64,000 nt of DNA, taken from assembly GCA_028554795.2 (NCBI GenBank), contig CM068827.1, forward strand, positions 71,893,809-71,957,808. Direction: 5' to 3'. Every line of letters begins with the position of its first letter. Position 1 is the stretch's first letter. The DNA comes from Sinohyriopsis cumingii. Its lineage: Eukaryota > Mollusca > Bivalvia > Unionida > Unionidae. A program made the position numbers and the translations under genes. Shown one piece after another: positions 22,458-42,474 of this stretch. Under the pieces are notes generated by a model that was not told the DNA's origin, did no database searches, and saw only the letters and a list, made by a program, of their open reading frames with translations.

Positions 22458-22823
22458 AGTAGTGAAGGGGGATACTATACGTACAATGGGAATTAGCATT
22501 ACAGACCCCCTTGGGAACATATACGTACAAGGGAAATTTAACATGGCGAAAAATCGTGGGAACATATACGTACAAGGGGAATTTAACATGGGAATAAATC
22601 GTGGGAACATATACGTACAAGGAGAATTTAACATGGGAATAAATCGTGGGAACATATACGTACAAGGGGAATTTAACATGGGAATAAATCGTGGGTCACT
22701 TTACGAACAAGGGGAATTTAACATGGGATTTTTTTTTAAAAAATTTTAAAAAAAGGGGTAGGCAATCGAAAGGCTATCTCTTTTCGAGAAATATGGCTGG
22801 CCCTGAAAAGGGCCTTTGGGTTT
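22458..22823 (+). repeat. Left terminal inverted repeat with five 45 bp units
   Basis: Pairs with 42109-42474. After an 18-base start (AGTAGTGAAGGGGGATAC) come about five units of 45 bp, each with GGGAACATATACGTACAAGG and AATTTAACATGG. The palindrome TACGTA is in nearly every unit. The inner end contains a histone-type stem-loop on the minus strand. Because 45 is divisible by three, the array is open in several frames, which is not evidence of a gene. Confidence 0.95.
22772..22814 (-). terminator. Histone-type 3' stem-loop plus U7-like element, inside left TIR (copy 3)
   Basis: Minus strand: GGCCCTTTTCAGGGCC (22814-22799), AGCCA, then AAAAGAG (22784-22778), again 14 bases after the stem. It serves the outward-reading small Arg-rich gene at 22839-23072. 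Confidence 0.82.
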
Positions 22824-22838
22824 ATGTTAATGTATTCA

Positions 22839-23072
22839 TTAACATAAATGGCACCGCATTGGTCTTCTTCTTGTCCTTAGGCTGCGTCTCACTGTTGGCC
22901 CGTAAATTAGCACTCTTTTCAGGCATCCTTGCCTCTCCACGTAAATCCTACGTATCCACAGGCTGGTGTTTGTCCTGTGGACAACGGTCCACTTGGATCG
23001 GACATACATGAGCAAGTCTGTCCGAAACATCATGGAAGACACACGGGTGGATGACTCAACTGTGGTCCACAT
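22839..23072 (-). CDS. Small Arg-rich protein, outermost left gene of element 2
   Basis: 77 residues, homolog of 4578-4808 in element 1. The shared core includes VSSMMFRTD, MYVRSKW and RRIYVERQGCLKRVL; the tail is Arg-rich (RRSLRTRRRPMRC). The ATG lies 45 bp after a minus-strand TATAAATA (23124-23117). No recognised domain. It reads out toward the terminal repeat, where its 3' signal lies. Open in both copies despite several amino-acid differences, as expected for a selected small protein. Function unknown; nucleic-acid binding is a guess from charge. Confidence 0.7.
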   Translation of the reverse strand: MWTTVESSTRVSSMMFRTDLLMYVRSKWTVVHRTNTSLWIRRIYVERQGCLKRVLIYGPTVRRSLRTRRRPMRCHLC

Positions 23073-23291
23073 CTTGAAGCGACGAGAACAGGTGAATCAA
23101 TGCACTGAACTGCGCTTATTTATACGCAGAGGTAGGATTGAAACGGATTGAGTTCATTCACCAATCCGAACACGCGTTACAGAATTCAGTCAGCCCGCAT
23201 CCAATCCGAAGAGAACAGTCTGTGACGTCACGTAGTCTATATAGATTCGCTAGCGCTTGTGTGTAGTCAATCTATGCAGCAGTGATTCAAC
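23073..23291. promoter_or_regulatory. Divergent CCAAT/CRE/TATA promoter (element 2)
   Basis: Minus-strand TATAAATA at 23117-23124, CCAAT at 23161-23165 and 23201-23205, CRE palindrome TGACGTCA at 23223-23230, and plus-strand TATATAG at 23238-23244. All sites are kept in the same order in element 1 (4359-4577). The layout resembles divergent histone gene promoters. Confidence 0.72.
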
Positions 23292-23861
23292 ATGACGGAA
23301 ACTCAGAAAACGATCCAATGGGGTGCACCAACAGGGGAGACCGCCCAAGGGAACCCGGACTTACTTTCAGAAGAGGTGAATTGGGATTTTGTGGATTTTC
23401 TCTCCTCGCAAGAATTTGTTCCGGAACCTTCGTTACCTTCTTCATTACCGCAAGTGGAGAATTTTAGACAGAGACAGAAAGAAGAATTGGAGAAATTTAT
23501 ACAACGACAAAAGGAAGCGGAACAAGCTTTTCTCCTACAGCAGCAAGAAGAAGAGGTAAGAAAAAAACAACAGCAACAACAGCAAGAAGAAGTAGCAGCA
23601 AAGAAACAAGAGGGTGAAAATCAAACGGTCACGGTACTGTTGGACATTTTAGCGGAGTTAAGGAGTCTGAAACAAATGTATCAGACTTCTTTATCACGAC
23701 CGAAGAGAATACGACCTTCCCGAGCTAAACACGTCAACCCTGTGACTAAGCCTACCGTACCACCCTTAGTGATTTCAACCCAATCATCATCAACATTACG
23801 CAGTTCAGAAGTAGGCCTTGGCCGTGGCAAAGGCATAAGGCAGTTAAAGTTGATTGCTTAA
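23292..23861 (+). CDS. Gln/Glu-rich coiled-coil protein, Polinton element 2
   Basis: 189 residues, homolog of 3786-4358. An acidic amino-terminal part (NWDFVDFLSSQEFVPEP) is followed by a Gln/Glu/Lys coiled coil around residues 60-105, with a poly-Gln run whose length differs between copies. Then come LLDILAELRSLKQMYQTS, a basic Arg/Lys segment (RPKRIRPSRAK) and the tail GRGKGIRQLKLIA. No enzymatic motif. The start fits the TATA box about 50 bp upstream. A histone-type stem-loop follows the stop by 27 bp. Function unknown; a structural or regulatory oligomer is plausible. Confidence 0.78.
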   Translation: MTETQKTIQWGAPTGETAQGNPDLLSEEVNWDFVDFLSSQEFVPEPSLPSSLPQVENFRQRQKEELEKFIQRQKEAEQAFLLQQQEEEVRKKQQQQQQEEVAAKKQEGENQTVTVLLDILAELRSLKQMYQTSLSRPKRIRPSRAKHVNPVTKPTVPPLVISTQSSSTLRSSEVGLGRGKGIRQLKLIA

Positions 23862-23888
23862 ACTCACCCCTACACCATAAATAAAAAA

Positions 23889-23925
23889 GGCCCTTTTCAG
23901 GGCCACCCACATTTCTCGAAAAGAA
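23889..23925 (+). terminator. Histone-type 3' stem-loop plus U7-like downstream element (copy 4)
   Basis: GGCCCTTTTCAGGGCC (23889-23904), ACCCA (23905-23909), then 14 bases from stem end to AAAAGAA (23919-23925). It lies just after the coiled-coil gene, on its sense strand. The opposing zinc-knuckle gene instead has AATAAA (minus strand, 24068-24063). Confidence 0.85.
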
Positions 23926-24153
23926 ATACAATTTCAATTTGCCAATAACTCAAAAAAAAAACCACCCATTTTACCCTTATAGTACGTGTCTGTGTATGAG
24001 TGCGTGAGTGTAGCTTCTTATTTTAAAATCAAAACTCAAAGACACTTACCTTATATCATTCATTTATTCTTTTCTCCATTTTTTACAATCCAATTCACAA
24101 TTCTCAACACAACACTTTAATAAAAAGTTCATTAACCTCTTCTGTCTCCTTGT

Positions 24154-24622
24154 TTAGTCTCTCTGTTTTTTGAATTTCTTCACTGTCACACTCTTTTCCT
24201 CTTCTTCCTCCTCACTTTCTTCCCTTCTTCTTTTCTTCTCCTGTTTCTTTTTCTTCACCTGTCTGCTTTCTTCCTCTGAAGAATCCCTCTCTTCCTCTGA
24301 AGAACCCCTCTCTTCTTCTGAAGAATCCCTTTTCTTCTGACTCATCTTGTTTCTTTTTTGGGCAATCTGGAGACCAATGTCCTTTTTCTTTACAATAATA
24401 ACAGGTATCTTGACTTTTGTCTTTTTTAGCCCCTGTTTTTGTTCTTTTTTGACGGTCTGGACACTCTGAAGACCAATGCCCTTTCTTCTGACAGATATAG
24501 CAAGTATCTTGACTTTTATCTCGAAAGGAAGGAGAGTAGTCCGTAGGCTGGTCTGAAGAGAATTTTCTAATGACCCCTCGCAAAGCTCTGACGAAACGTT
24601 CCATCTGGTTAGTCTCTTCCAT
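24154..24622 (-). pseudogene. Two-zinc-knuckle (CCHC) protein, Polinton element 2, broken
   Basis: Homolog of 3044-3493. The start MEETNQMERF at 24622 follows a minus-strand TATATAAAAG (24685-24676). Two knuckles of the form C-x2-C-x4-H-x4-C (CYICQKKGHWSSEC, CYYCKEKGHWSPDC) are followed by a charged tail of Ser/Glu and Lys/Arg blocks, more expanded here than in element 1. It carries about one break, in the tail. The message probably ends at AATAAA (24068-24063). Likely nucleic-acid binding. Confidence 0.8.
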
Positions 24623-24756
24623 CGTTGTGCTCGGCTTGAGAGTGAAATGAATAGTGAAAGGACAAGACACACACCCTTTTATATACGCTGGTCTGCTATG
24701 ACTATAAAGTAGCTCATGGTGTTTGAACTTGAGTCATTTGACTTTTTGCTTTCAAG
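24623..24756. promoter_or_regulatory. Divergent promoter, zinc-knuckle / PolB (element 2)
   Basis: Minus-strand TATATAAAAG (24685-24676) and plus-strand TATAAAG (24703-24709), facing away from each other, each about 50 bp before a start codon. Same layout as 2910-3043. Confidence 0.75.
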
Positions 24757-27700
24757 ATGAAACGATCTAATTCATTTGAGAAGGAAGAAGAAGAAGAAAG
24801 TAAGAGGCAGAAACGTGATCTATCGCCTCGTACCAGAGCTGAAATCTTGGCACAAATTCATGCCAGTGATTTTGAAGAGGACATGAGTGAACCAGAATCC
24901 AAACCCTCTAAACCAAGTTCACCACCCTTAGTCAACCCTGAAAAGTACTATTCCATTCGAGAGACGGAAAAGCGCTCCTCTAGAAAATTTAGAACCACGG
25001 CTTACAAATACACGGTGAAGTTTAAAGATTTCAAGGCTGAAGTGCCGTTAGAGAAAGCAGAAGTGTTCATCACTGAGGTGTGGGATTCTTTGCTCACTGC
25101 ACTCAAGCAACAATGTCAACCCAAAGAAGACGATCGCTTGAGACTTTCCATACAACACGACGGCTTGAAATCCCCTGTTTGGATCGAGTTTAGCACCCCT
25201 GCAGAATTGACCGCTTCCAAAGTCATGGACAAGATTCAACACGTGCAACAATCTAATGACCAGTTTGACATCACGATGGAAAAGCCACATTGGACATGAC
25301 CCACGTCTCTCCTCCTCAAGGGACCGGACGCAAAAAGATGTTATTGGTGAACGACCTTCGCAGCATTAAGCGTAGCCTTGTCCAAATTCACAATCCTCAT
25401 GACCAGATGTGTTTAGCCCGTGCCATCGTGGTGGGACGAACCTATGCCAACAAGAACGACACGGTAGAATGGAAAAGAACCTGGAACACTATTCAACGTT
25501 CCTATCGAGCCAAACAACGAAACGAAGCAGAACTCCTGTTACGACAAGCTGGCCTGTCCAAAGACACACCCTGTGGCATTCCTGAGATGCAAAAATTGCA
25601 AGATGCCCTAGCTCCACGATACACCTTGAAAGTGTACCCTCAAGAAGTGCGCGGGTCTCTGTTGTTTCGAGGGCAAGATTTTAAGGACGGAAAATACATT
25701 CACGTTTATCATCACGATGACCATTTCGATACCATTACCAGTATCACCGGATTCCTGGGATACGGTTATTACTGTGAGAAATGTGACCATGGTTATAATA
25801 ATCGAGAGCAACACAAGCATTGTGGATCGAAATGCTCAGGATGTTTGGCCTCTTCACCCTGTCTGAGCGAAGAACCAGTACCTTGTTCAACTTGTCTGCG
25901 TACGTTTGTCAGCCCTACCTGTTACCAACAACATCTGAAAACGCAAGGTTCACAGAAGAAATGTGCTTGTCAACTCCTGAGATAGTGCCCTACGTGTGAA
26001 CAAGTCATACGTACCAATAATACCAAGGCACACGTATGTTCAGGAAAGAAAAAATGTCACATTTGTCACCACATCGTGGACTTGAAACACCAATGTTACG
26101 TGCAAAAATACCAACCCCCACCAGAGAAAGAGGACGGTCACAAGAAGAAAGGCAATTTCATCTTTTTCGATTTCGAATGCATGCAAGAGACTGGCATTCA
26201 CATTCCTAATTTCTGCGTGGCTCATCGAGCGTGCGAGAAGTGCATTCAAGAACCTATCTTCAGTCATTGCCCTCACTGCAGCAAGATTCCTGGAGGGCGT
26301 GAAAAAATCTTTCGGGGACCAAAGACGCTAGACGATTTTGCCCAATGGGTCTTAGACCCCATCGACAAGACGTGGAACCAAGAGGACATCGAACTTTACG
26401 GAGATTGTCATCGTCATGCCACGGTGATGGCTCACAATTTCTCCGGATACGATGGACAGTTTCTTTTGAGGTACTATACGGAACAAGGCACCGAACGTCC
26501 TAAAGTCACTTTGAACGGAGCCAAAATCATTTTCATGCAAGTGGGACAAGTACAGTTTAAAGATTCGATGAGTTACTTGGCCATGCCTTTGAGTCGAATG
26601 CCTAAAACGTTTGGAATGACAGAAATGGCTAAAGGGTACTTTCCACACTTTTTCAATACGGAAGCCAATCAACACGCCGTTCTACCCCATTTACCTGAGG
26701 CTCACTATTACGACCCCGACAACATGCGTACCGAACAACGAGAAGCTTTCTACGCTTGGTACCAGGCTCACGCCTCGGACCCTTTCGACTTTCAGGAAGA
26801 AATGCTAAAGTATTGTCGTTCCGACGTGGACATTTTACGGCGTTGCTGTGGAAAATTTCGAGAACTGTTCATGGAACACGGAGGGGTCGATCCTTTGAAA
26901 GAAGCTTGCACCATTGCCAAAGCGTGTTCCTTAGTGTATCGACAACGATTCATGCCTGAAAACACCGTGGCTGTCATCAGTCCTCAAACGACCCACTATG
27001 TCAAACGTCAATACTCGGTCAAAGCCCTACGTTGGTTACATTACTTGTGCGACAAGGAAGACAAGTGGATTCAGCATGCCCGCAACGGAGGGGGCGAAAA
27101 GACCATCGGAACGTATTCGGTCGATGGCTGGGACTTAGAAAACCCCAAGATCGTGTACGAGTTTAACGGTTGCTTATTTCACGGATGTCCCGTCTGTTAC
27201 CCTGACCGTGGCACTAAAAATCAGTTTTTGCAACGAACCATGGAAGACTTGTACCAGGACACTTGTCAGCGACGCCTAAAGTTAGAACAGCAAGGATACC
27301 AAGTGGTGGAAATGTGGGAACACGAGTACGATCACCGTATGAAAACCGATCCCGAGTTTAAACGCCTCGTGGAAAGTTACCAGTTCATGGATCCGCTGAA
27401 CCCGAGGGATAGTTTGTACGGAGGAAGGACCAATGCCACCTGTTTGCTGTACCAAGCCGACGAAGAGAAAGAAGAAGAAATCAGATACTTGGACGTGTGT
27501 TCGCTGTATTCCTACGTGTGCAAATATTGTCGCTTTCCTGTAGGGCACCCGCAATTGCTGACGGAACACATCGACCTGGTCAACATTCGACAATACGAAG
27601 GCTTGATCAAGTGTAAAGTTTTACCTCCCACGAACCTATACCATCCCGTCTTACCTCACCATTGTCAAGGCAAACTGATGTTTCCCTTGTGCCGTACTTG

Positions 27701-28808
27701 TGCCGAAACGTGCAACCAAGACCAACCTTGCCATCACAGCCAGGAAGAACGGGCCTTGACGGGAACCTGGGTCAGCGTAGAATTGTTCAAAGCTCTGGAC
27801 ATGGGATACCAACTGTTAGAAGTGTACGAAATTTGCCACTTTCCCAAGACACAACAATACCACAAGGGTGACCCCACGCAGAAAGGCATTTTCGCAGACT
27901 ACGTGGATGCCTTTTTGAAACTGAAGCAAGAAGCCAGCGGCTATCCTTCCTGGTGTCACACTCCCGAAGACCAAATAAAATTCAAAGAGAAATACTACGA
28001 ACAAGAAGGCATCACTTTAGACCACATCGAGAAAAACGAAGGCAAGCGATCGTTTGCCAAAGTGATGTTAAATTGCTTGTGGGGTAAAATGGCACAACGA
28101 CCGTGTTTACCCAAGACGGAATATTTGACAGAACCTTCCCGCTACTTCCAGATGATTCACGACAAAACCAAATACATGAAACACGTGGACGTCGTTCGAG
28201 AGAATTTGATCTTGGTCAATTACGAAGAAGATCTGGACTTTGTACAAGACGACCCTTTTGGAAATGTCATCATTGCGGCTTACGTGACAGCCCATGCTCG
28301 CTTAAAATTGTACGAAGCTTTAGAACTGTTAGAAGAACGCGTCCTGTACTTTGACACGGACAGTTGCATTTACATCCATCACCCGATTCAACATCACCCT
28401 AGCATCGAAGGAGACCGTTTAGGAGCCTGGACAGACGAGCATCCCGACGACAAGATTCTAAGTTTCGTCAGTGGCGGTCCCAAAAATTACGGCTACGAAT
28501 ACCGGGACAAACAAGGAGAAGTGCACACGACGTGCAAAGTGAAAGGATTGACTCTGAATTATCGTACCAGTCGAGTGGTCATCTTTGGGGTATTGAAAGA
28601 AGCCTTGCAATTGGGAGAGGATGGAAACTTTAAAGTGACCACCTATCAACCGAACAAGATTGTACGTTTACCCACTCACCACATCGTCAGTCGACCCTTG
28701 GAAAAAGTCTATCAAATTGTATACCAGAAGCGAGTGCGACTTCCCAATCACTTCACCTTACCGTACGGTCACGTCGGTATTGGTCTGTATATAAAAAAGG
28801 AACCCTAG
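24757..28808 (+). pseudogene. polB: Protein-primed DNA polymerase B, Polinton element 2, broken
   Basis: About 1,350 codons, usual for Polinton PolB. In order: a basic amino-terminal region (MKRSNSFEKE), a poorly characterised region to about 25600, a cysteine-rich zinc-binding-like region at 25770-25980 (CEKC, CGSKCSGC, CSTC), and 3'-5' exonuclease motifs FFDFEC (about 26163), NFSGYD (about 26436) and YCRSDVD (about 26811). The polymerase motifs follow: SLY near 27500, KVMLNCLWGK near 28060 and YFDTDS near 28348. It replicates the element using a protein primer, by family knowledge. Broken about twice. PolB of element 1 is closely similar. Confidence 0.95.
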
Positions 28809-28853
28809 ACAAGATCGATAGTTCATTGGGACTACCAAGACCGAGCGAACAAG

Positions 28854-29237
28854 ATGAATACTTTGAAAGAGACATCGTTCCAGTTTGGGGATTGTAAAAA
28901 AGTTGTATCTTCCTCTAGTGTGACTAATATTGGATGGATAAGACCCAGACATTGCGACGGAAAATGTCCGGAAGGAAACTGCGATTGTCCATGTGGTTAC
29001 CATTGTAATTGCGTAACGGAGTTTGCAGACGAGTGCGATTGTGAGCCTTGCGATGGATACGATGCTGTACCTTGTGACCTGAGCGATGCCGTAAAGCATC
29101 ATGGGAACTTTAGTGCCCCTACCCCTATCATGGAAAGTGATGCTGTGCTTGTCAAACCTGTGGGATGCGAAAGCGATGCTGCTCGTCCTCTTGGACATTT
29201 TACTGGGTTTCGTTTTAAAGGGGAATGTTCACCTTAA
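28854..29237 (+). CDS. Cysteine-rich small protein of unknown function
   Basis: 127 residues, preceded by TATATAAA at 28788-28795. Residues 33-66 are packed with Cys (CDGKCPEGNCDCPCGYHCNC, then CDCEPC), a pattern suited to metal binding or disulphide knots. The second half is Ser/Asp-rich with a repeated SDA motif. No signal peptide and no match to a family I recognise. It starts the accessory block between PolB and the ATPase, directly ahead of the BIR gene. Confidence 0.6.
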   Translation: MNTLKETSFQFGDCKKVVSSSSVTNIGWIRPRHCDGKCPEGNCDCPCGYHCNCVTEFADECDCEPCDGYDAVPCDLSDAVKHHGNFSAPTPIMESDAVLVKPVGCESDAARPLGHFTGFRFKGECSP

Positions 29238-29315
29238 CGTCTACCCCCCTACGGATGCCATCCAGCCCTGAGCAAACTCCTGTTCCTGTCACCCAACCCT
29301 CATCGAAACGAACCT

Positions 29316-29597
29316 GTGAAAGACGAATATTCGTTTCCTGTGCGTTTGTCGGAATACTGCGACTTTGAAAATCGTCTTCAATCGTTCAAAGGAAAATGGC
29401 CTAAGTATCTGGGAGGACCGACCCCCGAAGAATTAGCCAGAGCCGGATTTTTCTACTTGGGCGAAGGAGATAAAGTCAAGTGCTTCAGTTGCGGTGTGTC
29501 ACTTCACCACTGGGAACCGCAAGATTCGGCCTACGTAGAACATGCTCGATGGTCACCGAATTGTCATTACTTACCCTTAGTGGGACCGAGACATTGA
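29316..29597 (+). CDS. BIR-domain (inhibitor-of-apoptosis-like) protein
   Basis: A single BIR domain fills the protein. A conserved Arg-Leu-x-Ser-Phe start (NRLQSFKGKWP) leads to LARAGFFYLGEGDKVKCFSC, WEPQD and EHARWSPNCHYL. The zinc ligands are spaced C-x2-C-x16-H-x6-C, exactly the BIR signature. BIR proteins bind caspases or IAP antagonists and are used by baculoviruses to block cell death. No RING finger follows. The true start is uncertain because no in-frame ATG lies near; the coordinate given is a GTG. In an element of this kind it is probably a captured host-type gene that would protect the replicating cell (inference). Confidence 0.85.
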   Translation: MKDEYSFPVRLSEYCDFENRLQSFKGKWPKYLGGPTPEELARAGFFYLGEGDKVKCFSCGVSLHHWEPQDSAYVEHARWSPNCHYLPLVGPRH

Positions 29598-29625
29598 AGT
29601 AACTTCTTACCATAATAATCTGTTC

Positions 29626-30081
29626 ATGGATACTTTACAAGAGAACATTCGTGCTTTGCCTGTGGAGTTGAGAGAACGCATTTATCGAGAACTGGTTAAA
29701 ATACAAGTGAAACGTAAAGAACAATTGCATCCGTTACGTCACCGGTGTTTGAACCACTGGTACCTGAAGGCTATACAAGGATTGATTCAATTGAAAGTGT
29801 TCCATCGGACAGACATTGATCAACGATCCTCTAGTTTTAAAAAGGATTGGTTTGGTATGGACGATTGTAGTTACATCATTGTAAACGTACTGCATCGAAT
29901 TCCAGAGGAAGAGTTAACGAATTACCAACATCTTGAACACAATGTCAACTTGGTGAAAGAGGAAACTTCTGAACGAATTGTAATGTGTAGATTAGTGACT
30001 CAACGATTTAAATTCGACACTGAAGTAAAACCATGTTTGTGCAAAGAGTACATTTCTTGTGTCAGACCAAAGAGGATTTAG
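29626..30081 (+). CDS. F-box-like accessory protein, tandem copy 1
   Basis: 151 residues beginning MDTLQENIRALPVELRERIY. The segment LPVELRERIYRELVKI resembles the first helices of an F-box (Leu-Pro-x-Glu-Leu...Ile). The rest is a conserved but unrecognised domain (NHWYLKAIQGLI, HRIPEEELTNYQHLEHN, FKFDTEVKPCLCKEY). It heads a tandem family with 30094 and 30329. If the F-box reading is right, it would link target proteins to the host SCF ubiquitin ligase; this is inference from a short motif. Confidence 0.65.
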   Translation: MDTLQENIRALPVELRERIYRELVKIQVKRKEQLHPLRHRCLNHWYLKAIQGLIQLKVFHRTDIDQRSSSFKKDWFGMDDCSYIIVNVLHRIPEEELTNYQHLEHNVNLVKEETSERIVMCRLVTQRFKFDTEVKPCLCKEYISCVRPKRI

Positions 30082-30093
30082 TATGACCTATTC

Positions 30094-30366
30094 ATGGATA
30101 CTTTGCTAGAGAACATTCGTGCTTTGCCTGTGGAGTTGAGAGAACGCATTTACCGAGAACTGATCAAAATACAAGTGAAACGCAAACTCAAAGTGATTCG
30201 TCCGTTTTTAAATTATGCTATGTTCCAAAGTACAAGAAGACTGATTATGAGTGGATATTACATTAGGCACAAAGTTAAACGAGGCTATTGGCCACGACCC
30301 AGCGATTCCAAAAACAGTGCATATACTTATGGATACTTTACAAGAGAACATTTTGGGCTTGCCTGA
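30094..30366 (+). CDS. F-box-like accessory protein, tandem copy 2 (short)
   Basis: 90 residues. The first 30 are nearly identical to copy 1 (MDTLLENIRALPVELRERIY), including the upstream CTATTCATGG-type context. The remainder diverges and is shorter (LNYAMFQSTRRLIMSGYY). It overlaps the start of copy 3. It may be a shortened family member or a decaying copy; I cannot tell from sequence alone. Confidence 0.5.
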   Translation: MDTLLENIRALPVELRERIYRELIKIQVKRKLKVIRPFLNYAMFQSTRRLIMSGYYIRHKVKRGYWPRPSDSKNSAYTYGYFTREHFGLA

Positions 30367-30853
30367 GGAGTTGAGAGAAAGGATTTATCGAGAGTTGGTG
30401 AAAATACAAGTGAAACGTAAAGAACAATTGCATCCGTTACGTCACCAGATCTTTAACCACTGGTACCTGAATGGCATAAGAGGACTGATTCGTCAGAAAT
30501 TTTTTCACTGGTCAGACCTTGTTGAATACTTTCAGTATATGAATGATGATGGGCTAGACGTTCGTAATTTTGGTTACTTGGAGATTCACTTACTGCAACG
30601 TATTGAGGAAGACGAGTTAAAGGATTACCAACATTTGTTACATGGAATCTGCTTAGAAAAAGACGAAACATCTAGACAAACTCTGACGTTTCAGTTACAG
30701 TATGTAACATTTAAATTCCCTACTGGAGAACGAACGTGTTTGGTTAGAAATTACCTTTATTGCTTCCGAAACAAAGACACTATAAAATCAAGTTGCCATG
30801 CCACGGATTATGTCACATATCATTCAACAGATTCCGTGGAAGGAACTCAATGA
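30329..30853 (+). CDS. F-box-like accessory protein, tandem copy 3
   Basis: 174 residues from MDTLQENILGLPEELRERIY. It keeps the F-box-like start and aligns with copy 1 throughout (NHWYLNGIRGLIRQKFFHW, LLQRIEEDELKDYQHLLHG, VTFKFPTGERTCLVRNYL). It has an added basic/Ser/Thr tail. The start overlaps the end of copy 2. The family seems to have grown by tandem duplication, as host-interaction genes of large DNA viruses often do. Confidence 0.62.
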   Translation: MDTLQENILGLPEELRERIYRELVKIQVKRKEQLHPLRHQIFNHWYLNGIRGLIRQKFFHWSDLVEYFQYMNDDGLDVRNFGYLEIHLLQRIEEDELKDYQHLLHGICLEKDETSRQTLTFQLQYVTFKFPTGERTCLVRNYLYCFRNKDTIKSSCHATDYVTYHSTDSVEGTQ

Positions 30854-31022
30854 CCATATTCAAACCGTGGATCATTACCATCAATTATTACAAGAACTGT
30901 ATCCGTTCAATTTGGGACGACAAGTGGTGTGTGTCTTAGTGACTTGTTTTTTGGGATTTCGTTTACCAACCGATTCTTTGTGGACTCTTTACGATCAGTA
31001 CTTACCACCTCAATGGCCTTAA
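30798..31022 (+). CDS. Small diverged relative of the tandem family
   Basis: 74 residues (MPRIMSHIIQQIPWKELNDH). The order Ile-Pro-x-x-Glu-Leu, then LVTCFLGFRLPTDSL and YDQYLPP, resembles the second half of the F-box-like copies, without the F-box-like start. A TATAAAA-like box lies just upstream (30781). It overlaps both neighbours in other frames. Moderate to low confidence. Confidence 0.42.
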   Translation: MPRIMSHIIQQIPWKELNDHIQTVDHYHQLLQELYPFNLGRQVVCVLVTCFLGFRLPTDSLWTLYDQYLPPQWP

Positions 31023-31336
31023 ATGGTCACGAAAAACTCCTTTTGCTCAAAGCCTTGCGGTTTCATCTGGATACTTCTCGACCTCAACAGGAAAAAAAGA
31101 TTCGTCAACTTTTAGCGACCCAAGACGTGTATGACGATGTGTGTGTAGCTTGTGACTTACATCCCCACTGGACAGATGTCCGTGCCTGGAAAGAATGGGG
31201 TTTTGAGGCTTGGACCCAAGAAGTGGCCCAGTATGCACGAGAGTTGTTCAAGGAAAAAAGTTACTTTTCAACCCGTGTTAGTGACGGTGCCAGAAGAACC
31301 CGTCACCCAGGACAGGACTGTCGTGGACAGGCCTGA
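31013..31336 (+). CDS. Unknown accessory protein
   Basis: 107 residues from the ATG at 31013 (MALNGHEKLLLLKALRFHLD). Predicted mainly helical, with VCVACDLHPHWTDVRAWKEW giving a Cys/His pair. It overlaps the reading frame of the next entry for about half its length. No family recognised. It lies at the end of the accessory block. Confidence 0.45.
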   Translation: MALNGHEKLLLLKALRFHLDTSRPQQEKKIRQLLATQDVYDDVCVACDLHPHWTDVRAWKEWGFEAWTQEVAQYARELFKEKSYFSTRVSDGARRTRHPGQDCRGQA

Positions 31337-34486: not shown

Positions 34487-34503
34487 CACACAAACACAAA
34501 AAA

Positions 34504-35614
34504 ATGGAAAAAGTCTTAGCCAGCATTTACTACGATCCCTCGCATCCTGCAGGTTACGCAGGAGTTCAAAAATTGTATCGTGCTGTCAAAACGCGACTGA
34601 AAAGTCTCCGTTTACCTCAAGTGCAACGATGGTTACAAGAACAAGCTACCTACACTTTACACAAACCCATTCGACGTAAGTTTGCCAGAAGTCGCACCCG
34701 AGTGGAAGGCATCGATCATCAATGGCAAGCCGATTTAGCCGATGTCTCTCATTTGGCCAGCTACAATCGCGATAAAATATTTGTTTTGTGTCATCGACGT
34801 CTTTTCCAAATTTGCCTGGGTCGTGCCCTTGACTTCCAAATCCAGCAGCGAGTTAGTGCGAGCCCTGCAACGAGTGTTGAAACAAAGCGGTCGTCACCCT
34901 CTTCGATGGCAAACGGACAAAGGCACCGAATTTCTGAACCAAGCTTTCCAAAAAGAATTAAAGAAACGTGACATTCATTTTTTTACCACCGAGAATCCCG
35001 AAACCAAAGCCAGCATCGTGGAACGTTTTCAACGCACTTTGAAAGAACGCATGTGGAAATATTTTACGCATCACCACACTCTGAAGTACATCGACATCTT
35101 ACCGCACCTGGTGCAAGCGTACAACCAATCTTACCATCGAAGCATCGGACGTGCCCCGCAAGACGTGACTCCCGACAACGAAGTGCTGGTGTTTGAGCGC
35201 CTGTTTGGTACGTCCCCGACGAGGGCTGTCCCCAAGAAAAGTGGAGAGTTGACCGTAGGAGATTGGGTGCGCATTGGCAAAACCAAACGCACTTTCGACA
35301 AAGGTTACTTACCTAACTGGACGACCGAATTGTTTCGCGTCACTGGACGAGTGCATGGCCGTCATCCTGCCGTCTATAAATTGGAAGACATGAACGGAGA
35401 AGTGCTCAAAGGAACGTTTTATTTGCCCGAGTTACAACGTGTGACCAAAAAAGAAGACGACGTGTACGACATCGAAAGCATTCTCGAACGCAGAACCCGT
35501 AAAGTGGGCAAACGACGTGTCAAAGAAGTCAAAGTACGTTGGAAAGGATATCCACCCAGCTTCGATTCTTGGATCGACGCTTCGCAAGTCATCGACTATA
35601 AAAAGAAGAAGTGA
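34504..35614 (+). pseudogene. Integrase with C-terminal chromodomain, broken
   Basis: Retroviral-type (rve) integrase of Polintons. The amino-terminal part (YYDPSHPAGYAGVQKLYRAV) is typical of the family. Catalytic acidic residues: Asp in DHQWQADLADV (about 34725), Asp in WQTDKGTEF (about 34917), and Glu in ASIVERFQ (about 35022), with 34 residues between the second and third. A carboxyl-terminal chromodomain at about 35460-35590 (YDIESILERR, VRWKGYPPSFDSWI) probably guides insertion to marked chromatin. It inserts the element and makes the 6 bp target duplication. About one break. Confidence 0.93.
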
Positions 35615-35619
35615 CCATC

Positions 35620-35835
35620 ATGCCCTTTCACACAGCAGACGCAGCTACGTCGATCACTCCTCCTTCACCTAGTTCTTCTGTGCAAGATTTACAAAAACAA
35701 CCTTTGTGGGTGTGGTGTGGAGAACGTGTGCCTAAAACGCAAATCGTCTTTTTCTGCCAAATCTTCGTGGTGTATTGTGTCATCGGGGCAGCCATCGCCA
35801 ATTTGAGTTTGCAACAAGGAGACAAACAATTGTAG
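35620..35835 (+). CDS. Small single-pass membrane protein
   Basis: 71 residues from the ATG at 35620; TATAAAAA lies at 35597-35604, inside the end of the integrase gene. A Ser/Pro-rich amino end precedes a hydrophobic segment at residues 41-64 (QIVFFCQIFVVYCVIGAAIA). Small membrane proteins with a Lys-Thr-x-Ile-Val-Phe-x-Cys-Gln start to the membrane helix are recurrent in Polintons between integrase and capsid genes. Role unknown. Confidence 0.62.
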   Translation: MPFHTADAATSITPPSPSSSVQDLQKQPLWVWCGERVPKTQIVFFCQIFVVYCVIGAAIANLSLQQGDKQL

Positions 35836-36035
35836 ACCATTTTATTGAGCAGTTGCATCGGTTACCTGCTTCCCAATCCCTCCCTGAAATTCTCCTCGAA
35901 CGGGAACCACGGGAACCTTGTGTCCAGTGCCAGTGCCAGTCACCACTCCAACCACAACCAGAACCCCATTTTGGGAGGAGACACGCCTCTGACGTCCAGT
36001 AATATCCCCTCGGACAGCCACAGAACTCTGGAATT

Positions 36036-36966
36036 ATGAGTCACCAAAACCAATTTTACTTGACCTTACCCAGTGACAGTTCCATGGAGGTGTTTCCCCA
36101 CAACACGTTGTGCTGTTACACGGCCAAATTACCTCAAGCCATCCCCTTAGATCACGAAGCCCATTGGGAAGTGGCTTTAGTAGAAATGATTCACCCGACC
36201 CAAGTCCTCAATGTCCTTCCCAATCAAAATAAATTTGATGTGGAAGTTTATGACGAGCGAGTGCAACAGTGGTTGGATAACCATGGCAAATATGACAAGA
36301 AAACCCGTTTACAAAATCAAAAGTACACCACCAATCACTTGTTCATTCCCCCAGGGTATTATTTTAGTGGTCAACATTTGGTCAGCACCATAACCTCCAG
36401 GTCTAATGTCGTGTTTCTGAAAGCTTTGGAGGATGCCAAAAAAAAGTGTCACCATGGATTACCACAAAGCAGCTCGTCGCTTCTTGATGAAATTTGGCGG
36501 GAGTAAAATCGTGTCCATTTTATTTTGTCCTGACTTGTTTGACATGTTGGGCGGAGACATGGACATGAGAATGACCATGATGAAGAAAAACGAATTACCC
36601 ATCGTTTACGACAACGAGTCTTTTAGCAAGTTATTTCGTGCCCCAGTAGAACTGAATCAAGGACTGAATTTGATGTTCGTGTATTCCGATGTGGTGGAGT
36701 ACAACGTGGTGGGACACACCTCCGTACCGTTACTGCGTGTCATTCCTTTCAAAGTGGATTCTGCCACGAACGCTGACGAGGAAGGTGGAAACACTTACCA
36801 CGTCCACCGCGAATTTGTACATCCTCACTATTTGCCTGTCAGCAAGTCTTATTTGGACACGGTCAACATTGCTATAAAAGGAGATCTGGGACAAAATATT
36901 CCATTCACCAAAGGAAAAGTCACGGTGAAACTCTATTTTCGAAAACGGTTCTCTCACGACTCGTAA
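36036..36966 (+). pseudogene. Minor capsid (penton-like) protein, broken
   Basis: Starts MSHQNQFYLTLPSDSSMEVF and continues with NTLCCYTAKLPQAIPLD and WEVALVEMIHP, the pattern of the single-jelly-roll minor capsid protein of Polintons. Later parts include LRVIPFKVD and HPHYLPVSKSYLDTVNIAIK, typical of its carboxyl half. It forms the capsid vertices in the family model. It lies directly before the small basic virion gene and the major capsid gene. About one break. Confidence 0.85.
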
Positions 36967-36969
36967 GTC

Positions 36970-37386
36970 ATGTATCCAGTGTACCGAGGGTTTGCTCGAC
37001 AGCGAGGACACGGTTTAGGAGATATGCTGAAATCAGCCTTTCGTTCGGTGGCCCCGGTGTTGAAACCGATGGTGACACGCGGATTGCACGCCTTGAAAGA
37101 TGCGGCACTGACGCAAGGCAAAGAATTTCTCCAAAATGTCATCATCGACAAACAAAACCCTAAAGAAGCCTTCATGAGGGCAGGCAAAAATGTCTTGCTG
37201 CAAACGGGCAAAGACATTTTAGGCCGACGAGACACACCTATAAATGCCCTGCACGCTACCGAGTCAGGCATTCAGCAAGGACAAGGCAGAAAGAGACGAC
37301 GAAGAAAACACCCTTTCACCAGACTTCAAGCTAGAAAGGCCAAGAAAAGAAGAACCGTTCGAGACTTAGACGTTTTCGATTATTGA
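36970..37386 (+). CDS. Small basic virion protein, possibly pVI-like
   Basis: 138 residues; TATAAAA lies at 36873-36879. The amino-terminal 40 residues could form an amphipathic helix (GLGDMLKSAFRSVAPVLKPM). The middle is helical and Gln/Lys-rich, and the end is very basic (RKRRRRKHPF, RKAKKRRTVR). Its position between minor and major capsid genes and its amphipathic start recall adenovirus pVI, a membrane-lytic cement protein; this is inferred, not proven. Confidence 0.6.
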   Translation: MYPVYRGFARQRGHGLGDMLKSAFRSVAPVLKPMVTRGLHALKDAALTQGKEFLQNVIIDKQNPKEAFMRAGKNVLLQTGKDILGRRDTPINALHATESGIQQGQGRKRRRRKHPFTRLQARKAKKRRTVRDLDVFDY

Positions 37387-37402
37387 GAAAAGAGACAAAA
37401 AA

Positions 37403-38716
37403 ATGATGCACCGAGAGTCTTGCGCTTGTTCCAAGACGGAACTGGATCTGTTTGCCATGCCCCCCACCATGATGACGATGCAAGAATCCCAATGGGTGGA
37501 ATTTCACCCCGTCTCCTCATTGACAGCCTCAGCTCCCATCGAGTTTGAAATCAAAGGACAGCCCGAAGATTACATCGATCTGAATAGCAGTTACTTGTAC
37601 TTGAAAGTCAAAGTTGTCGATGAGGACAATTCAACCCTAGATGGCGATGAGGTAATAGCTCCCGTCAACAATTTCATGCATTCCTTGTTTAGCGGAGTGG
37701 ACTTGTACTTGAACAACAAACTGGTCAGCAGCAGCATGGATACTTACCCTTATCGAGCGTACCTGGAAAATCTCTTGACGTACGGAATAGACGCCAAGAA
37801 CACTAATCTCAATGCCTGTGTGGTATGGGAAGCTGACGAAGCAGGCCAGTTTGAAACATTCGAAACTGATGCAACCAAAACACCAAACAATGACGGATTT
37901 GTAGAACGAAGAGACAAAATCAAAAACGGACAAAGTTTAGAACTAATGGATCGTTTACATTTGGACATGTGGTTGCAAGAGAAATATTTGCTGAACGGGG
38001 TGAATGTCCGCCTGAGACTGAATCGTAGCAGTGCCGCTTTCCATTTGATAGGTAATACTGCTTGCAAAACTGTCATCGAGGAAGCCAGGCTCTACGTACG
38101 ACGCGTAGAAGTGTTACCTAAAGTGGGTAACGACATCAGTCAGACGTTGAGCAGAACGACCGCCAAGTATCCGATCCGACGCGTGGAAGTGAAAACCTTC
38201 ACCATTCCCAAGGGACAGCGATCCATGATCGAAGATCATCTGTTCCAAGGACAGCTACCCAAACGTTTGATCGTTGGTATCGTCGAAAATGAAGCCTTCA
38301 ACGGAGCTTTGGCTAAAAATCCTTTCTACTTTCAACACTTTGGCGTGTCCAAAATCGAAGTCAGTCGCGATGGCAAGACCTTGTGTACCCGACCCTTTGA
38401 GCCTGACTTTCAGAAGAAGAATTACTTGAGATCGTACTTGTCCCTGTACGAAGCCACCGGCCAGTTAGGAACCAACACCAGTCACGGTATTACGTACGAC
38501 GATTATGTAGGAGGCTACGCTTTGTGGGCTTTCGATTTCACTCCTGACCAAGGCAGCGACGAGGGACATTTCCACCCTATAAAATCAGGCCAGATTCGTG
38601 TGGAAATTCAGTTTGCAAACCGAGACCCTGATGTAACGGTGAACGTAATCCTGTATGCAGAATTCGATAATACCATAGAAATCAACAGTTTGAGAGAAGT
38701 CATTCTAGATTATTAG
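37403..38716 (+). CDS. Major capsid protein, double jelly-roll
   Basis: 437 residues, usual length for Polinton major capsid proteins. Recognisable family segments: YIDLNSSYLYLKVKVVDEDN, NNFMHSLFSGVDLYLNNKLV, MDTYPYRAYLENLL in the first jelly-roll; KYPIRRVEVKTFTIPKGQ, PKRLIVGIVENEAFNG and FDFTPDQ in the second; and the common end NVILYAEFDNTIEI. TATAAAT lies at 37239-37245. It forms the hexameric shell units. The frame is open in this fossil copy. Confidence 0.95.
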   Translation: MMHRESCACSKTELDLFAMPPTMMTMQESQWVEFHPVSSLTASAPIEFEIKGQPEDYIDLNSSYLYLKVKVVDEDNSTLDGDEVIAPVNNFMHSLFSGVDLYLNNKLVSSSMDTYPYRAYLENLLTYGIDAKNTNLNACVVWEADEAGQFETFETDATKTPNNDGFVERRDKIKNGQSLELMDRLHLDMWLQEKYLLNGVNVRLRLNRSSAAFHLIGNTACKTVIEEARLYVRRVEVLPKVGNDISQTLSRTTAKYPIRRVEVKTFTIPKGQRSMIEDHLFQGQLPKRLIVGIVENEAFNGALAKNPFYFQHFGVSKIEVSRDGKTLCTRPFEPDFQKKNYLRSYLSLYEATGQLGTNTSHGITYDDYVGGYALWAFDFTPDQGSDEGHFHPIKSGQIRVEIQFANRDPDVTVNVILYAEFDNTIEINSLREVILDY

Positions 38717-38721
38717 AAACC

Positions 38722-39198
38722 ATGGAAGACTGTTCTCCCTCTTTACCTAGTGGAGAAACTTTAAAGATGGAATGTGTTGAAAAAGAAGAAGTGATCATGA
38801 TGAAGTCGAGATGGCCAGAACAAGAAGCCCATTTAGTCTCCTGTTTTGCCAAACACTTGGTCGACAAAATGACGGAATTGATCAAGAAAAATTGTTATGG
38901 ATGTCAAAACGATCATCCCAGTCAAATTCAACACGATAAATGCCTGATGTTGAGTCAAGAAGAAAAATTGGACGAGTATCTGGACGAAGCTTGGAGTCTC
39001 ATCTCGAACAAAGACGTGTTGCACCAGTGGTATAAAGACTTGCGTGAACATTCTTGTCCACCATTAACCACTCAAGAGATCCATCGTATCGAAGCTCTCC
39101 TAAATCAGAGTGAGGAAACAGAACGAATAACCGTTTATTCGTCAGACATTTTCAAGCAAAAAGTCAGGATCGAATTGACGACTTATTATTACCTGTGA
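38722..39198 (+). CDS. Cys/His-motif protein between capsid and protease genes
   Basis: 158 residues; TATAAAA lies at 38578-38584. The central motif NCYGCQNDHPSQIQHDKCLM gives C-x2-C-x3-H-x5-H-x2-C, a likely zinc site. I recognise this motif from genes at the same place in other Polinton-like genomes. The rest is helical (LDEYLDEAWSLISNKD, IHRIEALLNQSEE). Role unknown. The start is 5 bp past the capsid stop, and the end nearly touches the protease gene. Confidence 0.65.
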   Translation: MEDCSPSLPSGETLKMECVEKEEVIMMKSRWPEQEAHLVSCFAKHLVDKMTELIKKNCYGCQNDHPSQIQHDKCLMLSQEEKLDEYLDEAWSLISNKDVLHQWYKDLREHSCPPLTTQEIHRIEALLNQSEETERITVYSSDIFKQKVRIELTTYYYL

Positions 39199-39215
39199 AG
39201 AAGAAAACAACACAA

Positions 39216-39776
39216 ATGGATACCTGGGAACTTTATTACCTTTTGAACCACAGTTCGTATACGGCTTCTTGGAATCCTGTCGTCTGTGCTAAAGATGAAC
39301 TCCCTCATCGCAAACCTAAAGACCATCAAGCTTACGTGATCAACACGGACGACAGCCATCTCCCAGGAACCCACTGGGTAGCCGTCTACTTTCCTCAAGA
39401 AGGATGTGTGGAATATTTCGATTCGTACGGATTGCCCCCTTTGGAAGACGATATCATTGACTTTATGAGAAGAAATGCTCAAACCACCCGATTCAATAAT
39501 GTGAAATTACAAGGCACAGATTCCTTGGTGTGTGGACAATATTGTGTGTATTTTCTGCATCATCGCAGCCTAGGCTATTCCTTAGAACATTTAGTGACTC
39601 ATTTCGATCCTCGTTCTTCTGCTAGAAATGATGTGAAAGTAGATCGATGGTTTTGTGACCATTATGCTTATCTTTTGTCTCAAGCTAGGAAACGTAGTGT
39701 CCATCAATGGCCTAATGATTTCCAACAGTGGAAATCACAATTTCATTCACAACGTTGTCAGCCCTGTTTAAAGTAG
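39216..39776 (+). CDS. Adenain-type cysteine protease
   Basis: 186 residues from the ATG at 39216. The catalytic residues match adenovirus protease: His53 (GTHWVAVYF), Asp69 (EYFDSYG), Gln99 as oxyanion residue and Cys106 (CGQYCVYF), with the Gln-to-Cys spacing of seven as in adenain. It matures the capsid. The frame is open. AATAAA at 39890-39895 would end the message of this capsid block. Confidence 0.93.
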   Translation: MDTWELYYLLNHSSYTASWNPVVCAKDELPHRKPKDHQAYVINTDDSHLPGTHWVAVYFPQEGCVEYFDSYGLPPLEDDIIDFMRRNAQTTRFNNVKLQGTDSLVCGQYCVYFLHHRSLGYSLEHLVTHFDPRSSARNDVKVDRWFCDHYAYLLSQARKRSVHQWPNDFQQWKSQFHSQRCQPCLK

Positions 39777-40101
39777 ATTGTCCATTGAGAAAAAATGTTT
39801 GTGATTTGAAAAAATTTGTTTGATGTTATAGTGTTGGATTATTGTTAAAAATGTTAGAAATGTTGTTGTTTAGTGTTAAGTGATTTTTGAATAAAAAATG
39901 TTGTTTTGAAAAAAATGCCTTTGTCTTTTGTTTAGCTATAAGAATGTTGGATTGATGCTCTTTCATTTCTTACTATCCCTCTCATGAACGTTGCGGCTCG
40001 AAAACCGTGTTGGATGTTTTCCTTCACGTCCGCGCTTTGACTTTAAGAACCGGGGTTGTTTCCAGTCTAACCATCCATTGTTGACTCATCCTCCTACGAA
40101 G
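39777..40101. promoter_or_regulatory. 3' region of the capsid block and promoter of the right-end gene set
   Basis: AATAAA at 39890-39895, followed by GT/T-rich sequence. Then GATGTTTTCCTTCACGTCC starts at 40013 and leads into GCGCTTTGACTTTAAGAACC. This TTTTCCTTCACGTCCGCGC box recurs before each of the next genes. Confidence 0.65.
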
Positions 40102-40464
40102 ATGTGCTCGAAACTAGCTAAGCTCAACGAAGCCTACGTGAATTTGCATAGGGTCAGACACAGTCTGATACCGAAGCCAGAAGAAATAGAGAATGTGAGA
40201 ATGTTAAAAATCACTGAAGACCTGATAGAAGAGCTCTTCAGAGAAGAAATGAACAGGGAGAAAGAAGAATGGACAGAGAAGTACAGACTTCAGAGACAGC
40301 AGCAACAGCAGCAACAACAGCAACAGCAGCAGCAACAACCTGAAGCTGACAGAGGCTTTGTCGATTGTCGTATCGACACCAAAGAGTTCTTCTTCTCTTT
40401 CCGAAGAAGCAGACCTATCGCCAGAAAGTCAATCCTCAGAGGACATCGCATTCTTAGAAACTAA
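40102..40464 (+). CDS. Right-end charged coiled-coil protein 1 (poly-Gln)
   Basis: 120 residues from the ATG at 40102. A helical start (KLAKLNEAYVNLHRVRHSL), a charged helix (LIEELFREEMNREKEEW), a poly-Gln run of about 16, then a basic end (FFFSFRRSRPIARKSILR). It resembles the next two genes in size, charge and promoter, so the three may be diverged tandem duplicates. A histone-type stem-loop follows 29 bp after the stop. Function unknown. Confidence 0.6.
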   Translation: MCSKLAKLNEAYVNLHRVRHSLIPKPEEIENVRMLKITEDLIEELFREEMNREKEEWTEKYRLQRQQQQQQQQQQQQQQPEADRGFVDCRIDTKEFFFSFRRSRPIARKSILRGHRILRN

Positions 40465-40493
40465 AAAAAAGAATGCCATAGCAAACAAAAAAC

Positions 40494-40530
40494 AGCCCTT
40501 TTCAGGGCTACCCAATACTCTAGAAAAGAA
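40494..40530 (+). terminator. Histone-type 3' stem-loop plus U7-like downstream element (copy 5)
   Basis: AGCCCTTTTCAGGGCT (40494-40509), ACCCA, then AAAAGAA (40524-40530) after 14 bases from the stem. The outer pair is A-T in place of G-C, a compensated change that supports an RNA hairpin. Confidence 0.82.
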
Positions 40531-40961
40531 ATAACGATCAATTTGCCAATGTGTGTAGGTAGAGTAGTGTGAAAATAAACACTAACTCTTTTTAAAAAAT
40601 GTGAGGGTATGTGTTTGTGTGTTTGTGTTTGTAAGTGATCAAGTAAGTTGGTATGGATAGTAGATTAAAATGATGTCTTTTTTGGTGTTTGAGGTGTGTA
40701 TTTGGGGTTAAATTGGATTGCTTTGCGTATGTAAATAGTCTATTGAAGTGATTTATGAAAAAATTTTAAAATAGTGATGGGTAGCATAAAAAGTGAGTGA
40801 GTGTTTCTTTTAGGTCCGCGCGTTGTTGTTGTTTTTGGTCATGATCTAGGTAAGATCAATTTTATGTTTTTAGGGGATGTTTTCCTTCACGTCCGCGCTT
40901 TCACTATAAATTGAAACTCGCTGGACAGTCTAGCTACCCTTGTTGATTGATCAACACAAGA
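40531..40961. promoter_or_regulatory. Duplicated intergenic region with TTTTCCTTCACGTCCGCGC promoter box
   Basis: Contains GTGTGTAGGTAGAGTAGTGT, GTGAGGGTATGTGTT-like and TCATGATCTAGGTAAGATC segments, all repeated at 41343-41709. Then comes the box starting at 40876, running into GCGCTTTCACTATAAATT with a TATAAAT. Clearly a duplicate of the next intergenic region. Confidence 0.68.
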
Positions 40962-41273
40962 ATGAATAGTAGCAGAATAAGCAAACTTCTTGAACTTCAG
41001 ATACATCTGGAATATGTAAGGCGCCTGGTCAATGAACTGGCTGCGGAGGCTATAATAGAAGAAGAAAGAATAAAGAAAGAAGAGGGGGAGAGAAGAGAGA
41101 GGGAAGAAGAGGAAAAGAAAAGAGAAGAGAGGATGTCGTTCAATATTCCCGAGACAGAGGATTGGGGTGTTGAAGCGAATCATCCTCCCTCTGCGCTCCC
41201 CAGAAGAAAGGTGAAAGAAGACTGGGGAAGAAGATGCGTGTGTGGCGCCAGGCCAGGAAGGTGCAACCATTAG
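40962..41273 (+). CDS. Right-end charged coiled-coil protein 2
   Basis: 103 residues from MNSSRISKLLELQIHLEYVR. A helical start with Leu heptads is followed by a Glu/Arg/Lys coiled coil (residues 30-60) and a basic end with CVCGARPGRC. TATAAAT lies about 55 bp upstream, and a histone-type stem-loop 33 bp after the stop. Related in design to 40102 and 41710. Function unknown. Confidence 0.58.
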   Translation: MNSSRISKLLELQIHLEYVRRLVNELAAEAIIEEERIKKEEGERREREEEEKKREERMSFNIPETEDWGVEANHPPSALPRRKVKEDWGRRCVCGARPGRCNH

Positions 41274-41305
41274 ATAGGTGCATCAGGAGTTCAAAAAAAA
41301 CCAAC

Positions 41306-41342
41306 AGCCCTTTTCAGGGCTACCCAATACTCTAGAAAAGAA
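41306..41342 (+). terminator. Histone-type 3' stem-loop plus U7-like downstream element (copy 6)
   Basis: AGCCCTTTTCAGGGCT (41306-41321), ACCCA (41322-41326), AAAAGAA (41336-41342) after 14 bases. Same compensated A-T outer pair as copy 5. Confidence 0.82.
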
Positions 41343-41709
41343 ATAACTATTGATTTGCCAATGTGTGTAGGTAGAGTAGTGTGTATATAAACACTAACTC
41401 TTTTTTAAAAAAATGTGAGGGTATGTGTTAGTGTGTTTGTGTTTGTAAGAGTAAAGGTATGTTTGTGCGAATAGTAGATTATGGGTTTCTTTATTGTTTC
41501 TTAGCGTATGTGGAGAGTATAGTTTGGGTTATATTATATGAAATGAGAAAAGTAGGGATGTTTTCCTTCACGTCCGCGCGATGTTAGTCATGATCTAGGT
41601 AAGATCCATTTTATGTTTTTAGGGGGGTGTTTTCCTTCACGTACGCGCTTTCACTATAAGAACCCATAGTGTTCGTTGTTCAAACCAATCTGCAAAGAAT
41701 AAAAAGAAG
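41343..41709. promoter_or_regulatory. Intergenic region with two TTTTCCTTCACG boxes
   Basis: Box copies begin near 41557 and 41626 (the second reads CACGTACGCGC). CACTATAAGAACC after the second gives the TATA-like element. TCATGATCTAGGTAAGATC lies at 41589-41607, as at 40839. Confidence 0.66.
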
Positions 41710-42054
41710 ATGGCGTCAAACCAAATCGACAAAATACAAACCTTGCAAGACGTTTTAGACAACTTAGGAATAATGGAACAGATGCTATTAAGACTGGTTG
41801 AAGACCATTATTCCTATAGTCCCCATCGTGTGAAGATGGAAATTAATAACTTAAGGAAAGCAAAGGACAAGATTAGTGGTGTCATGAAAGAGATCAAGGA
41901 GGAGAAGGAGGATGAAGAGGAAAGAATAAGAATACGCAATTGGAACGAAAAAATTGAAAAAGAAGAAGAAAATGAAAAGAAGAAGAAAGAAGAGGAGGAA
42001 GAGAAGAAGAAAGAAGAGGAGGAGAAGAAAAAAAGAAAGAGAAGAAGAGTGTAG
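41710..42054 (+). CDS. Right-end charged coiled-coil protein 3 (outermost)
   Basis: 114 residues from MASNQIDKIQTLQDVLDNLG. Leu-rich helical first half (MEQMLLRLVEDHY; KMEINNLRKAKDKISGVMKE), then a very long Glu/Lys coiled coil ending KKRKRRRV, like a nuclear-localisation signal. It reads outward into the right terminal repeat, where its histone-type 3' signal lies. Function unknown. Confidence 0.58.
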   Translation: MASNQIDKIQTLQDVLDNLGIMEQMLLRLVEDHYSYSPHRVKMEINNLRKAKDKISGVMKEIKEEKEDEEERIRIRNWNEKIEKEEENEKKKKEEEEEKKKEEEEKKKRKRRRV

Positions 42055-42108
42055 GAGATAAAATAAGAACTTGGTGGAGGAAAAGAAGAAATTAGAAGAA
42101 GAAGAAGA

Positions 42109-42474
42109 AAACCCAAAGGCCCTTTTCAGGGCCAGCCATATTTCTCGAAAAGAGATAGCCTTTCGATTGCCTACCCCTTTTTTTTAAATTTTTTTTAAAA
42201 AAATCCCATGTTAAATTCCCCTTGTACGTAAAGTGACCCACGATTTATTCCCATGTTAAATTCCCCTTGTACGTATATGTTCCCACGATTTATTCCCATG
42301 TTAAATTCCCCTTGTACGTATATGTTCCCACGATTTATTCCCATGTTAAATTCCCCTTGTACGTATATGTTCCCACGATTTTTCGCCATGTTAAATTTCC
42401 CTTGTACGTATATGTTCCCAAGGGGGTCTGTAATGCTAATTCCCATTGTACGTATAGTATCCCCCTTCACTACT
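42109..42474 (-). repeat. Right terminal inverted repeat with five 45 bp units
   Basis: Reverse complement of 22458-22823 with two substitutions and small differences in the A/T run. The GGGAACATATACGTACAAGG units and a stem-loop are as in the left copy. Confidence 0.95.
42118..42158 (+). terminator. Histone-type 3' stem-loop plus U7-like element, inside right TIR (copy 7)
   Basis: GGCCCTTTTCAGGGCC (42118-42133), AGCCA, AAAAGAG (42148-42154) after 14 bases. It lies 63 bp after the stop of the outermost right gene. Confidence 0.82.

Follow-up and report, generated by a model that had tools for sequence, protein, structure and literature searches.

In a 64,000-nucleotide (nt) stretch of the genome of the bivalve Sinohyriopsis cumingii (contig CM068827.1; hereafter ‘the window’), the short genes found at either end of an animal Polinton carry a predicted histone-type mRNA 3′ end signal. 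Two related Polintons lie in the window: one with intact ends (element 2, 22458–42474) and one decayed (element 1, from position 1 to about 5235). Between them they hold seven sites at which a stem-loop is followed by A(C/G)CCA and then, after an invariant distance of 14 nt from the stem, by a purine element. All seven lie in sense, 21–63 nt 3′ of the stop codon of an open reading frame (ORF) of at least 75 amino acids; as a baseline, 6.9% of all position-and-strand combinations in the elements fall within 70 nt 3′ of a stop codon in the sense orientation. The initial annotation of this DNA had read the sites as histone-type 3′ ends on genes that do not encode histones, and that reading is supported for every component of the signal open to sequence analysis.

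Anatomy of the 3′ module

Taking element 2 from left to right, the module of gene L1 (22774–22819, minus strand) forms part of the left terminal inverted repeat (TIR) and is followed by that of L2 (23884–23928, plus strand), which has an AATAAA at 23880, just ahead of the stem; at the right-hand end, all on the plus strand, are those of R1 (40489–40534), R2 (41301–41346) and R3 (42113–42158), the last being the right TIR copy. Element 1 carries the counterparts of the first two, after its L1 homologue (4827–4872, plus strand) and after its L2 homologue (3724–3769, minus strand). The initial annotation listed these seven as sites of identical make-up, giving as positions for two of them, 22799 and 3744, what are in fact the left edges of minus-strand sites. 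Flank and purine element are indeed present at all seven, as is the 14-nt spacing, and six have a perfect 6-bp stem closed by a TTTC loop (stems starting at 4832+, 22814−, 23889+, 40494+, 41306+ and 42118+). The seventh, the L2 site of element 1 (3744 above), reads GGCCCT-TTTC-AGGGTA, with G–U and G–A at the base of the stem, and has a predicted folding energy of −6.3 kcal/mol as against −9.0 to −11.4 kcal/mol for the other six.

Immediately 3′ of the stem comes ACCCA (five of seven sites) or AGCCA (two of seven), just as had been described, such that a CA precedes the expected cut, 5 nt past the stem. The purine element is AAAAGAG at four sites and AAAAGAA at three, giving cores of AAAGAG and AAAGAA respectively. 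In the account of histone 3′ ends cited here, the AAAGAG core pairs with CUCUUU of U7 small nuclear RNA (snRNA) and ACCCA stands before the cleavage site (PMC7026596); the major cut is placed 5 nt after the stem (PMC6303110, passage cited). Our comparison is with this mammalian U7 sequence.

A search with the Rfam Histone3 model (RF00032), the check that had been proposed, reported six of the seven sites, four of them at or above the gathering cut-off of 34 bits: the L1 site of element 1 (42.5 bits, E = 3.2e-9), that of L2 (41.2 bits), and the two TIR copies belonging to L1 and R3 (35.6 bits each). The sites of R2 (31.7 bits, E = 3.3e-5) and R1 (31.0 bits, E = 6.4e-5) fall below it, and the damaged site of element 1 gave no match at E ≤ 5. 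At that same limit, nothing else in the 64 kb was reported.

A pattern describing the whole module has six matches in the window, compared with a mean of 0.00 in 100 dinucleotide shuffles. Elsewhere it matched one stretch in a viral collection (viral_contigs; L001), where the stem is imperfect, and four in a prokaryote collection (genome_contigs; L002–L005), none of the five loci giving a Histone3 match at E ≤ 0.5. With the downstream element left out of the pattern, the stem-loop had no match in viral_contigs.

Genes with and without the module

Within element 2 the module follows five of the 24 ORFs that we checked (L1, L2, R1, R2 and R3) and is absent from the remaining 19; in three of those 19 (24212−, 31013+ and 39216+) a hexamer of the poly(A) type lies no more than 250 nt downstream. 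Pfam gave no match, to histones or to any other family, for the five module genes, consistent with the earlier statement that no encoded protein is a histone; nor did Pfam find a histone among the 20 of the 24 ORFs that were scanned.

L1 (22839–23072, minus strand) encodes a basic protein of 77 amino acids (17 lysines plus arginines, three aspartates plus glutamates), with its stop codon 24 nt ahead of the stem. We regard it as a real gene, since homologues are found in two database records and the ratio of non-synonymous to synonymous substitution rates (dN/dS) against its element 1 copy is 0.14, a value indicative of purifying selection. L2 (23292–23861, plus strand) encodes a protein of 189 amino acids with a predicted long helix (residues 53–134) and, near its C-terminus, a basic stretch, possibly a nuclear localisation signal; it has 20 homologues (alignment A3) and a dN/dS of 0.54. 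Neither protein matches a PHROG family, and L1 has no sequence match in the PDB at E ≤ 1. The AlphaFold2 model of L1 is unusable (mean per-residue confidence, pLDDT, of 48.5); L2 is modelled as one long helix (pLDDT 67.4).

The three right-hand genes, all on the plus strand, are ORFs of 120 (R1, 40102–40464), 103 (R2, 40962–41273) and 114 (R3, 41710–42054) amino acids; the proteins of R1 and R2, and of R2 and R3, are not alike by BLASTP, these being the two pairs compared. All module genes are short single ORFs, with estimated mRNAs of some 300–640 nt. Convergent to L2 on the minus strand, there is also a gene at 24212–24622 encoding two CCHC zinc knuckles (PF00098); it has hexamers of the poly(A) type, lacks a histone-type end, and has a homologue in element 1 at 3044–3493.

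Conservation of the module

Element 1 retains homologues of both left-hand genes, L1 at 4578–4808 (plus strand; protein 84% identical) and L2 at 3786–4376 (minus strand; protein 89% identical). Between the two elements the L1 module is identical at 44 of 46 positions and the following 25 nt at 22, as compared with 185 of 231 columns in the L1 coding region and 182 of 347 in the outer TIR (60 columns of which are gaps), suggesting that it is the module, more than the TIR, that has been kept. We use the adjoining TIR and L1 as the safer yardstick, given that synonymous divergence (dS) differs markedly between the neighbouring genes: 0.79 for L1 as against 0.10 for L2 (4578–4808 and 3786–4376 compared with 22839–23861). 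The elements may therefore be mosaics, along which neutral rates may differ, and the difference suggests recombination between Polinton lineages.

Beyond the window, other records have what appears to be a partly changed, decayed module downstream of L1 and L2. The reading frames of two database homologues continue past the usual end of the protein, P0142 through KPFSGPLTLLENIYY and P0129 through WPISGPPTSLEKRYY; in the matching frame, the module translates as RPFSGPPTFLEKR for element 1 and as RPFSGPPTFLEKKY for element 2. Such traces are visible in two of 22 homologues, the protein frames of the other 20 not extending into the module region. Absence beside the same genes in related Polintons, which had been named as grounds for rejecting the initial reading, is not what these copies show: the module is present in element 1 and, in decayed form, in these two homologues.

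Upstream boxes and promoters

R1–R3 have in common not only the 3′ module but also a 19-bp upstream box, TTTTCCTTCACGTCCGCGC, despite the dissimilarity of the proteins noted above. Four copies lie upstream of these genes on the plus strand: exact ones at 40017–40035 (R1), 40880–40898 (R2, followed by TATAAA at 40905) and 41561–41579 (the distal copy of R3), and one with a single mismatch at 41630–41648 (the proximal copy of R3). A TATA-like motif follows three of the four, and allowing up to three mismatches the box occurs nowhere else in the window. This arrangement suggests that the three genes are also under joint transcriptional control. The box (CACGTCCGCGC) is close to what we take to be the sequence bound by HINFP, a factor for histone H4, although our literature search gave no motif that would confirm it.

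L1 and L2 diverge from a promoter region at 23073–23291, with TATAAA at 23124 on the minus strand, TATATA at 23238 on the plus strand, and CCAAT-type motifs recognised by eye; the latter carry little information, as the window contains 140 occurrences of CCAAT.

The Polinton elements

Element 2 is bounded by TIRs of 366 nt (22458–22823 and 42109–42474; 99% identity), flanked by a 6-bp target-site duplication (TSD), TACATT, at 22452–22457 and 42475–42480, and has the termini AGTAGT...ACTACT. Tandem repeats of some 45 bp lie within the TIRs (22512–22728 and 42204–42420). Its genes include a family B DNA polymerase (PF03175, DNA_pol_B_2; E = 1.9e-41), a retroviral-type integrase (rve, E = 1.9e-11) with a chromodomain (E = 7.2e-8), and a packaging ATPase (Pox_A32, 31.8 bits against a Pfam cut-off of 22.8). 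The integrase region (34504–35614) consists of two overlapping ORFs in different frames, as does 36036–36966, presumably a minor capsid gene; either gene may be broken in this copy. The product of 37403–38716, without a match in our Pfam scan, is what we take to be the major capsid protein; it has 1240 homologues at E ≤ 0.001, and the named organisms among the best 120 of these are mostly bivalves (Mercenaria, Crassostrea, Saccostrea, Ostrea), which points to a mollusc as the probable host. By eye only, 39216–39776 looks like a cysteine protease, Pfam and PHROG giving no match. Searches of viral_contigs with the 37403–38716 protein, its alignment A1, the polymerase, the L2 alignment A3 or the ATPase found no relatives.

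Element 1 lies in the opposite orientation and is 89.5% identical to element 2 over a single alignment of 4966 columns; only one of its ends falls inside the window, with the position of that end taken from the alignment. Outside both elements, ORFs at 10803–11925 resemble, as judged by eye, the reverse transcriptase of animal long interspersed nuclear elements.

Discussion

The mechanism we propose is that of the histone genes themselves, borrowed from the host. Host SLBP would bind the stem-loop of the end-gene mRNAs and host U7 snRNA would pair with the purine element; cleavage would then fall immediately after A(C/G)CCA, at 5 nt from the stem, and yield short mRNAs without poly(A). Histone mRNA is described as depending on SLBP and U7 and as being lost at the end of S phase (PMC5706932, passage cited). 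Because such processing operates mainly during S phase, expression of the end genes, or retention of their mRNAs, would coincide with host DNA replication; the central genes lack the signal. SLBP/U7 recognition, the absence of poly(A) and the coupling to S phase we infer by analogy with histone mRNA, and the analogy is a strong one. Taken by itself, the processing step, in which mRNAs of L1, L2 and R1–R3 are handled by host SLBP and the U7 small nuclear ribonucleoprotein (snRNP), is very probable; the whole mechanism, S-phase coupling included, we consider probable, with appreciably less assurance. A broader picture makes the end genes a regulon that mimics that of the histones, combining the R1–R3 box or the divergent TATA promoter with an SLBP/U7 end and being expressed at the histone locus body in S phase only; their transcripts would then be the first non-histone protein-coding mRNAs with histone-type ends to be described in animals. 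We put this picture forward tentatively, as somewhat less than an even prospect.

Several observations weigh against this account. Independence cannot be claimed for the seven sites: 22814− and 42118+ represent the left and right TIR, those of element 1 are homologues of those of element 2, and 40494 and 41306 have common downstream sequence. The number of independent events is thus smaller than seven, there being by context about three kinds of site (a TIR type, an L2 type and an R1/R2 type), and since the sites are related by descent, multiplying probabilities across them would overstate the case. The compensated stem changes to which the initial annotation had pointed come down to one pair altered on both sides (G–C to A–U), at two sites that probably share an origin. 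In the seventh site that pair is disrupted, and covariation is weak, with 35 of 500 shuffles reaching the observed score. The complementarity to U7 that had been claimed is to be read against the mammalian CUCUUU, to which the three AAAAGAA sites have one mismatch. Both R1 and R2 score under the Rfam gathering threshold and the second site of element 1 is broken at its stem base. Lastly, two of the five module genes, L2 (at +18) and R1 (at +109 and +199), are also followed in the next 250 nt by hexamers of the poly(A) type.

Of the other ways to read these sites, the nearest keeps the SLBP/U7 ends and looks for their benefit elsewhere than in S-phase timing, either in a route of export and translation by which short intronless mRNAs would need no poly(A) or in expression in the egg and early embryo, which are rich in histone mRNA. 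The brevity of the module genes and of their mRNAs would suit such a role, as would a preprint concerned with SLBP-independent control of maternal histone mRNA (PMC12803260, passage cited); the upstream box common to R1–R3, on the other hand, suggests joint transcriptional control, by an agent left unstated, and on balance we think this reading unlikely. Were the modules instead inactive remnants, acquired from a histone gene of the host and multiplied along with the element ends, one would understand their relatedness by descent, the damage to one of the seven and the decayed versions in two homologues from other records. Set against this are the contrast between the TIR module (44/46) and the adjoining outer TIR (182/347), and the fact that six of seven stems are perfect, with damaged copies confined to a decayed element or running past a lost stop codon; we judge the relic explanation improbable.

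The hairpin might also be a feature of the terminal repeats, serving integration, replication or packaging and merely resembling a histone stem-loop, as would fit the two sites within the TIRs of element 2 and the homologous L1 site of element 1. Four sites, however, are internal to the elements, each in sense after a stop codon, and the ACCCA and the purine element at its fixed spacing would go unexplained; this makes the idea more improbable still, and a signal of the TIR alone we rejected. Chance is refuted by the shuffles and collection scans: with a best Histone3 E-value of 3.2e-9, no match in 100 shuffles, and the rarity of the pattern in viral_contigs and genome_contigs, its probability is negligible.

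Among the protein-coding mRNAs of animals, that of the histones has been described as the sole one known to end in this stem-loop (PMC6303110, with similar wording in PMC12775136; passages cited). If our reading is correct, the stem-loop route would not be restricted to histones, being used on several unrelated genes of a virus-like element. It would also provide a specific means by which a DNA element that replicates itself could keep step with host S phase, and transcripts of natural origin in which the roles of stem-loop and U7 site could be separated from histone coding sequence. The prediction is testable in other Polintons with the existing Rfam model.

Among the literature matches listed, which covered few subscription papers, we found no report of histone-type ends on Polinton genes. 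The initial annotation’s remark that no earlier description was known needs qualifying in one respect: a survey of 8,300 Polinton-like virus (PLV) genomes with cmscan and curated thresholds counted six Histone3 (histone 3′ UTR, untranslated region, stem-loop) matches (PMC12220804, passage cited). As here, the matches are to RF00032; in the passage concerned they are given as a count, without gene association, downstream element or interpretation, and none comes from the cryptophyte PLVs that are that paper’s own subject.

In its general make-up element 2 is like the animal Polintons/Mavericks of PMC8097293, for which the text cited gives (AGT)2//(ACT)2 termini and a 6-bp TSD: it has these ends and this duplication together with PolB, an rve integrase, an ATPase-like gene and TIRs. 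It differs in its 3′ modules, the words ‘histone’ and ‘stem-loop’ having no occurrence in the main text of that paper. Unlike metazoan replication-dependent histone genes (RF00032; SLBP, U7 snRNP), the module genes are non-histone and Polinton-borne, with a predicted signal; they resemble those genes in the 6-bp stem, the TTTC loop, the ACCCA, the purine element at a fixed distance, and in being short genes of a single ORF.

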